Source of the DNA: an uncultured Alphaproteobacteria bacterium
GTDB taxonomy: Bacteria > Pseudomonadota > Alphaproteobacteria > CAAHEQ01 > UBA3637
Length of the DNA: 46,302 bases
Direction: 5' to 3'
Assembly (NCBI GenBank): GCA_949292205.1
Contig: CASEYR010000009.1
Span: 1-46,302, forward strand
Shown here: positions 30,911 through 36,764 of the stretch, in pieces
Layout: each line of letters starts with the position of its first letter
Numbering within the stretch: position 1 is the first letter of the stretch
Notes under the pieces: generated by a model
The model's database searches: none
What the model saw: only the letters and a program-made list of their open reading frames with translations
Told to the model about the DNA's origin: nothing
Position numbers and translations under genes: made by a program

Positions 30911-31792
30911 TCATTTTAAATTTAACGAGTTCAACTCCTTTAAAATTTGTCTCATTCTTAGAATCTGTTTTTGCCATTGATTCGGCATTTTCTTTTTCAT
31001 TTCGGGATTCTCTATAAAATATTGAACACAGAACAAACTATCAGCTTTATCAAGTGCTTCTAAATAGTGCAAATCTATTTTAAAATCACTCAACTTTTCA
31101 TAAAAAGATATAACTTTTTCCAACAAAGATAGGTATTGTGGGTGATAGAGCGTACGAAAATCCCAAGCACGATCACCCAAACAAGCATTAGCAAAATCAA
31201 AAACACCCATCAGATGATGATGATCATCAACCAAAGAATTTGCTTCCCAAAAATCCTTATGAAGCAATACGGGATCCGTTTTTAAAGAATATGTATCATA
31301 ACAAAAATCATAAATTTTATTCACATCAGATTCAGAAAAGATACTCTTTAAATCAGAATACATTACCTCACGCGGACATAACGAATAACTTTTCAGATCT
31401 TTTTCAGGGATAGCGTCAATAATATCGGATACGGGAATTTGATGTAGTTCGTAAAAAAAGTTGGCAATCTCATAACAAAAATCATTTTGAACTTGCTCAG
31501 ATAACGCATTGTATGTCTTAATACTCCAAGATTTTCCTGTTATTTTTGTATGAATAGCATATGTCAACTCCCCTTCCACAAGATAAGGATGAGGTATTTG
31601 AACACTCAACTTTCCCTGTAAAAAGTCCAAGAGTTTAACCTCTTTTTTATATTGTTCAATGTTTACTTTGGGAATACGTATAATTTTGTCATTTACACAA
31701 AAGGCAATACTGCTCCACCCCTCCCCTATGCATTGAACACAAGCATCCGGAAATTGATGTTGAAGCCTTTCTTTAAGTTCTGATATTGTCAA
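30911..31792 (-). CDS. Aminoglycoside phosphotransferase (APH) family kinase
   Basis: 293 residues with a protein-kinase-like fold: nucleotide loop IGEGWSSIAFCVNDKIIRIP, catalytic loop LLHKDFWEANSLVDD (Asp and Asn of HxDxxxxN), and metal-binding GVFDFANACLGDRAWDF. APH relatives phosphorylate aminoglycosides, macrolides, choline, homoserine or fructosamines; the substrate cannot be inferred, and resistance is not implied. No clear Shine-Dalgarno. Lies in a run of small-molecule-modifying genes on the minus strand. Confidence 0.8.
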   Translation of the reverse strand: MTISELKERLQHQFPDACVQCIGEGWSSIAFCVNDKIIRIPKVNIEQYKKEVKLLDFLQGKLSVQIPHPYLVEGELTYAIHTKITGKSWSIKTYNALSEQVQNDFCYEIANFFYELHQIPVSDIIDAIPEKDLKSYSLCPREVMYSDLKSIFSESDVNKIYDFCYDTYSLKTDPVLLHKDFWEANSLVDDHHHLMGVFDFANACLGDRAWDFRTLYHPQYLSLLEKVISFYEKLSDFKIDLHYLEALDKADSLFCVQYFIENPEMKKKMPNQWQKQILRMRQILKELNSLNLK

Positions 31793-34094: not shown

Positions 34095-34577
34095 CTAGTC
34101 TTGACCACTTTCGCTTATCGTCTTATTTAAACAAGTCTTTCTCTTTTGAATTAGCTGCTCAACGGTTCCTATGACTTTAGCCGGATTTCCCGCAACGACA
34201 CAACCGAAGGGAATATCATGAGTCACCACACTACCGGCTCCGACAATACAATTATCGGCAATATTAACGCCAGCCAAAATAATGGCTTGCCATCCAATAA
34301 AGCACTGATTACCTATAATTGTTTTTTTAAAATAGGTTTGATATCCATGTGTTGACAGTGCAGCATCGTGAGCCAAAATCGTACACCCTGTTAAAACACA
34401 TTTTGATCCAATACAAATTTTTGATCCTTGTGATGTATCCAAATGACAATTCCCATAAATCCATGTTTCATGTCCGATATCTAACCCTTTGAAACGGTAT
34501 TTCTGCGCATTGATCAGGGGATTCGGATATCTTTTTGCTTTCAAAAGCAATAAATATAGTAACTGATTTATCTTCAT
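34095..34577 (-). CDS. Hexapeptide-repeat acetyltransferase (LbH type)
   Basis: 160 residues. Left-handed beta-helix repeats run from about 35 to 140 (CIGSKCVLTGCTILAHDAAL; GNQCFIGWQAIILAGVNIAD; NCIVGAGSVVTHDIPFGCVV; AGNPAKVIG). The last block is the signature of maltose/serine O-acetyltransferase-like enzymes that act on sugars in glycan synthesis. Overlaps the GT4 gene by 4 nt (ATGA), so it is translationally coupled and probably decorates the same glycan. Confidence 0.88.
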   Translation of the reverse strand: MKINQLLYLLLLKAKRYPNPLINAQKYRFKGLDIGHETWIYGNCHLDTSQGSKICIGSKCVLTGCTILAHDAALSTHGYQTYFKKTIIGNQCFIGWQAIILAGVNIADNCIVGAGSVVTHDIPFGCVVAGNPAKVIGTVEQLIQKRKTCLNKTISESGQD

Positions 34578-35629
34578 TTTTCATCCATAAGTTCCAAAAC
34601 AGTTTTATGAAGAACTCTTTTTTGAATATCAATATGATAAAAATCCATAAAAGTTTTATGGCTTCTTTCAGATAACAAATGACGATAATCAGCATTCTGA
34701 ATCAGCAATCGTAATTTATTAAACAATCCGAAAGAATCATCTAAGGCCACAACTTCACCGCAACCAAGTTGAGAAACAACTTCAACCATACCGGGACACG
34801 ATGTAACCACAACCGGCTTTCTATAAGCACAGCTTTCAATCAAAGACAAAGGTAAGGCTTCGGATCTTGACGGAAAAGACATTATATCCACCTGATTAAA
34901 AAAAGCACCTTTATCCTGAACCCATCCCAAGAATGTAACACAATCTTGAATATCATATTGATGACACAATTCTTCATAAAGCAATCTCTGACTACCATCA
35001 CCGCCAATCAACAGATGAAACGATATCCGGTGCTTTTTCAATAACGAACATGCCCGTATTAAAAGATCGCATCCCTTTACAGACTCCAACCGTCCTAAAA
35101 AACCAATACAAGGAACTTCTTTATGATAGTTTGAAAAACTCCGAGAAATAGGATAGGCAACATTTGGGCACAAAATAATTTTACGTTCGTCAATTTTCCA
35201 ATACTCAATCAATCTCTTCTTCAAGTATTTGGTAATAGAAAGTATTTTATCCAGCCGATAAAACAAACGATTTCTATCGTTGTGCGTTGTTCCAACTAAC
35301 TTTATCTGTTTTCCGACAAGTAAACGAACCCATTTGGCAGAACAACAGAAAATTGCTCTGTTTCCATGCAACCATATTATATCCGGATGGAAGCGTTTTA
35401 TTTTCCAAACCAACAGAACCCAAAAAATAGGATTGTATAATTTCGGAGAACAAATCGTTTCAACCTGAGAAAAACCCCTTCTTTTAAATTCATCCTCCGA
35501 AGCAGACTTGTGAACACACAAAGCCTTGCTGACAAATCCAAGATCTTCAAAAATACAGGCATGTTGAATAAAGACATTTTCTAATCCGCCCCGCTTTTTT
35601 CCAAGCATCACATTCAAGATTCTAACCAT
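34574..35629 (-). CDS. Family 4 glycosyltransferase
   Basis: 351 residues, GT-B fold. N-terminal donor-independent half starts ILNVMLGKKRGGLENVF; the C-terminal half has GFLGRLESVKGCDLLIRA and the EX7E motif in SRSEALPLSLIESCAY. It transfers a sugar from a nucleotide donor with retention of configuration to a growing glycan. Overlaps the ParB-like gene upstream by 16 nt and the acetyltransferase downstream by 4 nt. Confidence 0.9.
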   Translation of the reverse strand: MVRILNVMLGKKRGGLENVFIQHACIFEDLGFVSKALCVHKSASEDEFKRRGFSQVETICSPKLYNPIFWVLLVWKIKRFHPDIIWLHGNRAIFCCSAKWVRLLVGKQIKLVGTTHNDRNRLFYRLDKILSITKYLKKRLIEYWKIDERKIILCPNVAYPISRSFSNYHKEVPCIGFLGRLESVKGCDLLIRACSLLKKHRISFHLLIGGDGSQRLLYEELCHQYDIQDCVTFLGWVQDKGAFFNQVDIMSFPSRSEALPLSLIESCAYRKPVVVTSCPGMVEVVSQLGCGEVVALDDSFGLFNKLRLLIQNADYRHLLSERSHKTFMDFYHIDIQKRVLHKTVLELMDEK

Positions 35630-36270
35630 TGTTTTCCCTTTCCGAAAGGAGTAAATATCTTAACAGATGAAGCATAACAAAAACGAACAAAAACCGTTTC
35701 AACACCGCCGTCAATACAAGCGGATAAACGATGATGCCCATCATCTAAAGAATCTTTAAGCCCCCAGTGCCGACATAACATCACACTGATGGGCTTTTGA
35801 GAATCATATCCTTTTTTCAAACTTTCTTTTAACTGATCATATTTTTTATCTCGCTGTTGCTTATTTAAAGGATATCTTTTTAAAAGATATGCGTTTTCCG
35901 ATGTCCTGACGCATCGTTCTATCCCCATATTCCGCAAATCGGAACAAGGAACCTGATAAACACGACTGCTCCACCGTTTGTTTTTGCAACGATATATCTT
36001 CATCAGATTCAAAATGGATTGAAATGAACAAGTCGTTGGAAAACAAAAACGAACCCAAATCAAACTGTTTTCTTGATATTTTTCCTTTTGAAACAACAAA
36101 GTATAATCATATAAAAAACAGTCTTGTTGAACATACTGATTATTTCCCAAGATAATAATAATTTCTTGTTTATCAGCTACTTTATTTGGATTAAGACAAG
36201 GTAAATTTTGAATATCTTTCCAATAAACAGGGTACATTTCAGATGAAGAAATTAAACAACATCGCGTCAT
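35614..36270 (-). CDS. ParB-like-domain protein in a glycan operon
   Basis: 218 residues. The C-terminal part has SLDDGHHRLSACIDGGVETV, the DGxHR motif of ParB/Srx-like nucleotide-binding domains, preceded by KPISVMLCRHWGLKDS. The N-terminal 130 residues match nothing I know and contain several Cys (TRCCLISS, LPCLNPN, PCSDLRN). Such domains occur as ATP/CTP-using modules outside plasmid partition, and some lie in polysaccharide clusters. Biochemical role unknown. Start overlaps the 51-aa ORF (ATGA) and its end overlaps GT4, so all four genes are coupled. Confidence 0.65.
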   Translation of the reverse strand: MTRCCLISSSEMYPVYWKDIQNLPCLNPNKVADKQEIIIILGNNQYVQQDCFLYDYTLLFQKEKYQENSLIWVRFCFPTTCSFQSILNLMKIYRCKNKRWSSRVYQVPCSDLRNMGIERCVRTSENAYLLKRYPLNKQQRDKKYDQLKESLKKGYDSQKPISVMLCRHWGLKDSLDDGHHRLSACIDGGVETVFVRFCYASSVKIFTPFGKGKQWLES

Positions 36271-36422
36271 CTGTTATCGCCCACAAATTTTCTGACCAAA
36301 GCTTCAATCATATCCGCTAAAACGGTCTTATGCTCTGCAAGCAAAATCCTTTTATCTCGTGTTTCTAAATAAATACGGATTATTTCCTCTATTTCATACT
36401 GATATTCTAAATTAGCTCCCAT
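36267..36422 (-). CDS. 51-residue helical protein, first gene of the glycan operon
   Basis: ATG at 36422 with a perfect AGGAGG 6-7 nt upstream; stop at 36267 overlaps the next start (ATGA). The product starts MGANLEYQYEIEEIIRIYLE and is predicted mostly helical with alternating charge, no TM segment. It matches no family I know. The strong Shine-Dalgarno and coupling argue that it is real. It may regulate or chaperone the ParB-like protein; that is speculation. Confidence 0.65.
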   Translation of the reverse strand: MGANLEYQYEIEEIIRIYLETRDKRILLAEHKTVLADMIEALVRKFVGDNR

Positions 36423-36434
36423 TGTGACCTCCTA

Positions 36435-36729
36435 AAAAAATTAAAACCACCCGTTTTCAGGTGGTCGGAGAGTTCACAAATCAAATCCTTCTGATGATCC
36501 CTATAGTCTTTAAAGTCGTTACAAAAAACAGACTTCTGAACATACACCACAGGCTCCCCGACCGAAGTCAAGGAATAGCCATATCTATATGTATCCTTTG
36601 ATTAACCAAAAGATACATCTTTCAAGCAACGGATGGATAACTAACCGTTGCTCTAGAAGGATTTTAAGCTTGTGACAGCCCTCTTGCACCCAAACAGGCA
36701 CTCAGGATACAAAAATAATTTAATATCCG
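36435..36729 (-). ncRNA. Structured leader RNA with competing helices and terminator (6S-like alternative)
   Basis: From a predicted start near 36729, the minus-strand RNA can form: a hairpin AGCAACGG/CCGTTGCT (36652-36645 with 36632-36625); a 12-bp hairpin (36618-36607 with 36600-36589); a cUUCGg hairpin (36580-36552); a 10-bp long-range stem pairing GGTCGGGGAG (36563-36554) with CTCTCCGACC (36472-36463); and an intrinsic terminator ACCACC/GGTGGT (36465-36446) with a T-run ending at 36434. The T-run abuts the AGGAGG of the 51-aa ORF. The UUCG hairpin and the long-range stem share one strand, and the long-range stem takes 3 bases of the terminator, so they are mutually exclusive. This reads as an attenuator/antiterminator for the glycan operon. 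A stem-bubble-stem plan also fits a 6S-like RNA. Confidence 0.55.
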
Positions 36730-36735
36730 ACAAGA

Positions 36736-36764
36736 AATATAAAATAAATCCAATTAAAATGCAA
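36736..36764 (-). promoter_or_regulatory. Promoter of the leader RNA and glycan operon
   Basis: Minus-strand TTGCAT (36759-36764), 17-nt spacer, TATATT (36736-36741). It lies in the 398-nt gap between the LD-carboxypeptidase stop and the 51-aa ORF. Confidence 0.55.

Follow-up and report, generated by a model that had tools for sequence, protein, structure and literature searches.

A probable riboswitch-like two-state leader RNA of an uncultured alphaproteobacterium, proposed to act by attenuation and distantly related to sRNA-Xcc1

Comparative analysis of the window (the whole stretch of DNA that was analysed, 46,302 nt from an uncultured alphaproteobacterium) suggests that a ~300-nt RNA encoded on its minus strand is a cis-acting, riboswitch-like two-state leader that belongs to a large uncatalogued superfamily and would act here by attenuation, a reading to which we assign a probability of about 0.7. 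Riboswitches as a kind combine a conserved knotted core with a variable output platform (terminator or RBS), occur before several genes per genome and are positioned in cis. The window RNA shares with them the knotted core, variable outputs, multiple genes and cis position, and sequence comparison among its relatives bears out the conserved alternative pairings, the terminator overlap and the cis position; the comparative evidence is thus for a structured cis-element with alternative folds that are coupled to a terminator or RBS. It differs from riboswitches in the non-uniform function of the genes it precedes and in its hypervariable private loop pairings.

On the minus strand, the leader occupies the interval between an LD-carboxypeptidase gene (37900-36821) and a small operon. 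The promoter boxes, competing strands, terminator and Shine-Dalgarno (SD) sequence described in the initial annotation were all present at their places on this strand, and the elements of the locus are as follows.

About 36729-36428, minus strand: leader RNA, ~300 nt
36736-36764, minus strand: sigma70-like promoter, -35 TTGCAT (36764-36759), -10 TATATT (36741-36736), 17-nt spacer (sequence; clade-wide enrichment)
36705-36728, minus strand: 5' hairpin P1 (GGATA...TATCC), near the inferred transcript start (sequence and fold; like hairpins in homologues by inspection)
36686-36701, minus strand: hairpin H1 (GUGCC/GGUGC), counterpart of the rhizobial kissing hairpin (fold; homologues)
36666-36681, minus strand: P2 hairpin GGGCU-GUCACA-AGCUU, loop pairing with PK2' (stem covariation by inspection; loop pairing)
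36655-36664, minus strand: P3 5' strand AAAUCCUUCU, hypervariable among copies (exact 10-bp complement at 36492-36483; 139-element swap test)
36589-36653, minus strand: two variable hairpins within the P3 domain (fold)
36567-36575, minus strand: upstream competitor UUCCUUGAC, forming a UUCG-capped local hairpin with GUCGGGG (fold and pairing tests)
36554-36563, minus strand: pivot strand GGUCGGGGAG (the same as GGTCGGGGAG, 36563-36554), 5' strand of the long stem (invariant in 31 seed copies)
36500-36553, minus strand: P4/P4b hairpin, conserved internal loop GUAUGUUCA / UAAAG (two-sided changes in 12 of 14 pairs)
36483-36492, minus strand: P3 3' strand AGAAGGAUUU, in the loop of a small UCA/UGA hairpin (swap test)
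36474-36480, minus strand: PK2' UUUGUGA, complementary to the P2 loop (swap test)
36463-36472, minus strand: long-stem 3' strand CUCUCCGACC (10-bp distal partner CTCTCCGACC, 36472-36463; all pairs formed in 31 of 31 copies)
36445-36466, minus strand: intrinsic terminator hairpin with a 4-nt overlap with the long stem, then TTTTAATTTTTTT (T-run) (sequence; clade survey)
36428-36433, minus strand: Shine-Dalgarno AGGAGG of the first gene (sequence)
36267-36422, minus strand: first gene, 51 aa, without Pfam match (Pfam search; congeneric-genome comparison)
35614-36270, minus strand: second gene, 218 aa, without Pfam match (Pfam search)
34574-35629, minus strand: family 4 glycosyltransferase (Pfam search)
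34095-34577, minus strand: hexapeptide-repeat transferase (Pfam search)

The first gene of the operon begins with an ATG at 36422 on the minus strand. It had been labelled 'ParB-like', a name we do not retain for its 51-aa product without Pfam match. A congeneric genome carries the same leader before a gene whose product is related in its N-terminal half, at 59 % identity over the first 27 residues. Downstream of the operon, a phosphotransferase (APH/choline kinase-like) gene (window 30911-31792) is located near two GNAT genes. Taken singly, the promoter of the leader is weak, as its -35/-10 pair is not the top-scoring pair within its own segment; among terminator-type copies, promoter-like pairs are enriched (19 % vs 6 % scoring at least 10 of 12), and across copies the -10 box ends a median of about 157 nt 5' of the pivot strand.

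Folding of the 300-nt leader yielded a predicted energy of -102.4 kcal/mol (z -6.2 against dinucleotide shuffles), and none of 200 shuffles was equally stable. The minimum-energy fold of the window copy (-103.6) combines the local UUCG hairpin, in which the pivot strand is paired with CCUUGAC (36573-36567, minus strand), with a complete terminator, and the 10-bp long stem can be imposed only at a cost of about 12 kcal/mol in an energy model without pseudoknots. Four nucleotides, GACC (36466-36463), are common to the long stem and the 5' arm of the terminator; with the long stem formed, the terminator loses three Watson-Crick pairs plus one G-U, in line with the claim of the initial annotation that the long stem sequesters three bases of this arm. 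Without GACC, the predicted energy of the terminator hairpin changes from -12.9 to -4.0 kcal/mol. The window pairings that would link distant parts of the leader are AAAUCCUUCU/AGAAGGAUUU for P3 and UCACAAG/UUUGUGA for PK2.

R1, a covariance model of the 3' core of the leader, was built from 31 sequences. In the seed alignment, 95 % of cells were paired, compared with at most 57 % in slid controls, and the covariation score was 0.42 vs 0.22 shuffled. Two-sided changes were found in 15 pairs of the P4, P4b and terminator stems, and the ten long-stem pairs are intact in all copies, where changes are confined to one side. For the two long-range pairings we exchanged partners among 139 distinct copies, and found a Watson-Crick helix of at least 7 bp in 87 % of native vs 11 % of swapped pairings for P3 and PK2. 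Here P3 joins a 9-nt hypervariable loop 3' of P4 to the 9 nt following hairpin P2, whilst PK2 joins the P2 loop to the nucleotides immediately 5' of the 3' strand of the long stem. Both cross the long stem, and the RNA must therefore be knotted or alternating. An earlier swap test, which allowed G-U pairs and a wide search region, had given 9.1 vs 8.2 bp, and was resolved by restriction to Watson-Crick pairs and the correct segment; swap tests control only partly for relatedness, such that control segments themselves reach z -1.8 to -2.5.

Competition between the UUCG-capped local hairpin and the 10-bp long stem was also supported, with both partners of the pivot strand conserved in comparative tests. 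The segment immediately 5' of the pivot pairs with it at a mean of -14.7 kcal/mol; the segment beyond that reaches -7.8 and shuffles -8.6, and the adjacent segment was the better one in 134 of 139 copies. As the pivot strand is near-invariant in the window's subfamily, both pairings rest there on one-sided changes, and full covariation comes from a sister subfamily (the sRNA-Xcc1 type described below) with a variable pivot strand. In 55 copies of that type the upstream partner tracks changes in the pivot (z -7.9, vs -1.8 for a control segment), as does the downstream partner (z -16.6). Furthermore, a terminator lies directly 3' of the long stem in 91 of the 140 copies of the terminator-bearing clade; its 5' arm begins within the 3' strand of the long stem in 90 of these 91, most commonly with an overlap of 4 nt (51 copies) or 3 nt (17 copies), and the T-run is short (TTTT) in some copies. 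The overlap seen in the window is therefore usual for the clade, and the attenuation-like layout that had been proposed gains support from the conserved competing helices together with the terminator overlap.

Other branches of the family carry different outputs. Elements of the sRNA-Xcc1 type frequently have a second copy of the P3 partner at the RBS; L285, for example, has CUUAUCAG upstream and again, as CUUAUCAG-GAG, ahead of the start codon, and repeats of the P3-partner octamer at the RBS of the next gene were noted in L285, L270, L225, L268, L263 and L271. Among elements of this type, the P3 loop forms a helix of at least 7 bp with its own RBS in 45 % of the phylum set and 23 % of the class set, compared with 1.7 % and 2.4 %, respectively, for the RBSs of other copies, and with 9 % and 2 % for coding-region controls. 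No such helix was found in any of 81 copies of the window's subfamily. Near the start codon, rhizobial copies possess the hairpin GCGGGGRCGNACCGC, and its loop by inspection matches that of a 5' hairpin; again by inspection, this kissing pair covaries, with ACGC/GGCG replaced by ACGU/GACG in L068, L081, L097 and L131. One core with several outputs is the pattern expected of a cis-acting switch.

DNA comparison located the same RNA at two more places in the source genome, with a near-identical 41-nt stretch in two copies. Among 96 genomes searched, 27 also contained it in the form of two conserved blocks; most of them were members of the window's family. R1 matched in 31 of 43 genomes of the window's family (1-18 copies each) and, in a sample of 289 genomes from across the class, in 26. 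The largest number, 18 window-type copies, was observed in one family genome (G026), where several lie at contig ends. A DNA pattern derived from the core matched 114 stretches in a named genome collection, and R1 confirmed such matches in gut alphaproteobacteria, Rhizobium, Agrobacterium, Shinella, Methylobacterium, Sphingomonadales and Rhodobacterales (E <1e-6), as well as five acidobacterial loci, including Granulicella rosea (E <1e-6). Additionally, one Agrobacterium copy had relatives in 222 plasmid records, of which 184 were typed as conjugative. A window-type copy was also observed in a bin of cyanobacteria relatives (L164, a Candidatus Gastranaerophilales MAG), and is most likely mis-binned alphaproteobacterial DNA.

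A search of Rfam with all families, at gathering and relaxed thresholds, returned no known family for the window type, nor did any of 18 searched loci from the pattern set match a family at its cut-off; for the leader itself, the Rfam check that had been called for gave no 6S, EAR or riboswitch match. A search of the available literature likewise found no described riboswitch class for these taxa. The statement that no described class applies thus stands for the window copy, but not for its wider kin: an acidobacterial copy matched RF02221 below threshold, which led us to the closest catalogued relative, sRNA-Xcc1, an 88-nt Xanthomonas RNA whose ends were mapped by Northern blot and RACE (PMC2996969). 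Within the class, 38 of 289 genomes had RF02221 matches; for the phylum the figure was 52 of 397, with 35 above the curated cut-off of 53 bits. The Rfam model, at 87 nt, covers only the 3' half of the RNA, yet the matched loci also possess the upstream domain, P3 and PK2 of the window type. Both types share the order of the core, namely closing stem, conserved-internal-loop hairpin, small variable-loop hairpin and closing strand. They differ in the internal loop (GUAUGUYCA/UAAAG in the window type vs GAAUA(C)AA/GAAUA in sRNA-Xcc1) and in output (terminator vs RBS repeat).

The window leader gave no RF02221 match up to E 10, and the best scores in its own subfamily, in other genomes, were 20.8-42.5 bits; with the window copy below the cut-off, we regard its type as a sister subfamily of RF02221 rather than a member. 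R1 in turn matches Xcc1-type RNAs at E 1e-4 to 1e-3, consistent with a core architecture common to both, and intermediate RNAs match both models (L260 804-888: 56.2 bits for RF02221, 32.1 bits for R1). Cores of this intermediate kind, with an AUGUCCA- or GGUCCA-like loop and an Xcc1-type small hairpin, were seen in L249, L257 and L260, bridging the two subfamilies. Outside the window, the source genome holds four weak RF02221 relatives, with near-repeats on C4 and C14, and two of these (C14:9584 and C6:30176) by inspection have the terminator-SD-start layout of the window.

C14:9584-9665, minus strand, and C14:9911-9992, minus strand: weak RF02221-type relatives (L209)
C6:30176-30257, minus strand: weak RF02221-type relative (L210)
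C4:5806-5887, plus strand: weak RF02221-type relative (L211)

The kinship with sRNA-Xcc1, described as a trans-acting sRNA in contrast to our cis-leader reading of the window RNA, raises the alternative of a mainly trans-acting small RNA with no tie to the downstream gene beyond a common promoter region, its terminator ending a free-standing transcript. Such an RNA would account for the terminator at its end, for the mapping of sRNA-Xcc1 as a discrete 88-nt species (PMC2996969) and for the detection of its homologues in cells and vesicles of Xylella (PMC12189769); in X. fastidiosa Temecula1 there are seven of these homologues, five of them clustered (PMC12189769). A terminated leader would, however, likewise show up as a small RNA, and sRNA-Xcc1 itself is found upstream of symE, in integron cassettes (PMC12444791). 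Of 133 copies, 111 have an SD sequence and a same-strand start codon no more than 130 nt downstream (median 47 nt), compared with 44 of 130 on the divergent side, and the RBS complementarity of the Xcc1 type is cis-specific. Moreover, the most variable parts of the RNA are those that pair in cis, unlike a conserved trans-pairing seed. We thus consider a role in trans unlikely for the window RNA. The RF02221 model starts at the pivot strand; if the mapped 5' end of the 88-nt RNA coincides with this start, the Xanthomonas transcript may have been processed from a longer leader.

Rather less probable is a leader for protein-dependent or processive antitermination (EAR-, ops/RfaH- or LoaP-like) dedicated to envelope operons, of the kind that the initial annotation had in mind in linking the RNA to glycan genes. 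The leader does contain one terminator, and many downstream genes in the clade encode surface proteins or glycosyltransferases. EAR (epsC, RF01735) and JUMPstart (RF01707, ops/RfaH) are alike in preceding polysaccharide genes, as is the wcaG motif (RF01761), a candidate cis-regulatory RNA before exopolysaccharide genes (PMC2864571). The window leader matched neither RF01735 nor RF01707; it also has no Rfam match to wcaG, which has a marine and cyanophage distribution. A NusG paralogue was not found, with one NusG-domain protein in each complete genome of the family, which speaks against the proposed route via such a paralogue but leaves room for another RNA-binding protein. Nor was a special tie to glycan genes supported, and targets extend beyond polysaccharide genes: by inspection of the predicted products, the downstream genes include signal-peptide proteins, lipoproteins, autotransporter-like and pilin-like proteins, glycosyltransferases, nucleases, and XRE and AraC regulators, and in the Rhizobiales they encode regulators and small proteins. 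These rhizobial targets, together with the RBS or distal-hairpin outputs of other branches, argue for a local switch. No common function pointing to a ligand emerged among the downstream genes. Cyclic di-GMP, considered as a universal ligand, was rejected, as GGDEF is present in 39 of 40 family genomes but six RNA-bearing genomes show no GGDEF protein.

It is slightly less probable again that the element is an intergenic mobile repeat whose structure serves its own spread, with gene control incidental. The patchy distribution, the multiple copies per genome, many of them on conjugative plasmids, the relatives in integron cassettes and the 41-nt stretch shared by two source-genome copies would all suit such a repeat, but sequences have diverged highly among copies whilst structure is kept, orientation and spacing to the start codon are strongly biased, and output modules are tuned to the adjacent RBS. 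Finally, 6S RNA (RF00013) or another housekeeping RNA, the main alternative offered at the outset, is very improbable: the RNA is long and hairpin-rich and the source genome has no other recognisable 6S, but neither the leader nor the rest of that genome matches RF00013, the leader has no Rfam match even at E 10 save a spurious one to a lincRNA, its pseudoknots are unlike 6S, and it occurs in up to 18 copies per genome, mostly before genes and with a conserved tie to them.

Under the preferred reading of a two-state cis-acting leader, the pivot strand GGUCGGGGAG pairs, as the comparisons show, either with the upstream local strand or with CUCUCCGACC just 5' of the terminator, and the P3 and PK2 loop pairings tie the 5' domain to the core. 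In the putative OFF state, the fold favoured by 12 kcal/mol in the pseudoknot-blind energy model, the upstream hairpin forms, such that the terminator could close fully and transcription would stop. In the putative ON state, a signal would stabilise the long stem, thereby removing the base of the terminator and permitting read-through into the operon. The conserved internal loop of P4 is the likeliest site at which a small ligand or protein might act. On the same core, relatives of the sRNA-Xcc1 type would control translation through the P3-partner repeat at the RBS, and rhizobial copies would use the kissing hairpin near the start codon.

Copies precede hundreds of unrelated genes in a wide range of proteobacteria and in some acidobacteria, and the RNA thus probably serves as a genetic switch in common use. 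More tentatively, and at somewhat short of even odds, we propose a new superfamily of cis-switches across Pseudomonadota and Acidobacteria that includes sRNA-Xcc1 and in which each copy has a private, fast-changing loop code: in one state the variable loop would bind a 5' decoy, and in the other, for many relatives, it would bind a second copy of that decoy placed at the RBS, so that hundreds of copies could rely on a single sensor without interfering with one another. The decoy and its repeat at the RBS yield direct predictions for compensatory mutation. Such a switch would change how sRNA-Xcc1 is read: no longer as an sRNA acting in trans on predicted targets, but as the 3' portion of the cis leader of an adjacent gene (symE, in Xanthomonas integron cassettes). 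It would also add a large and widespread orphan riboswitch-like class, the window form of which is absent from Rfam, and which is present on rhizobial and agrobacterial chromosomes and conjugative plasmids and in gut bacteria.
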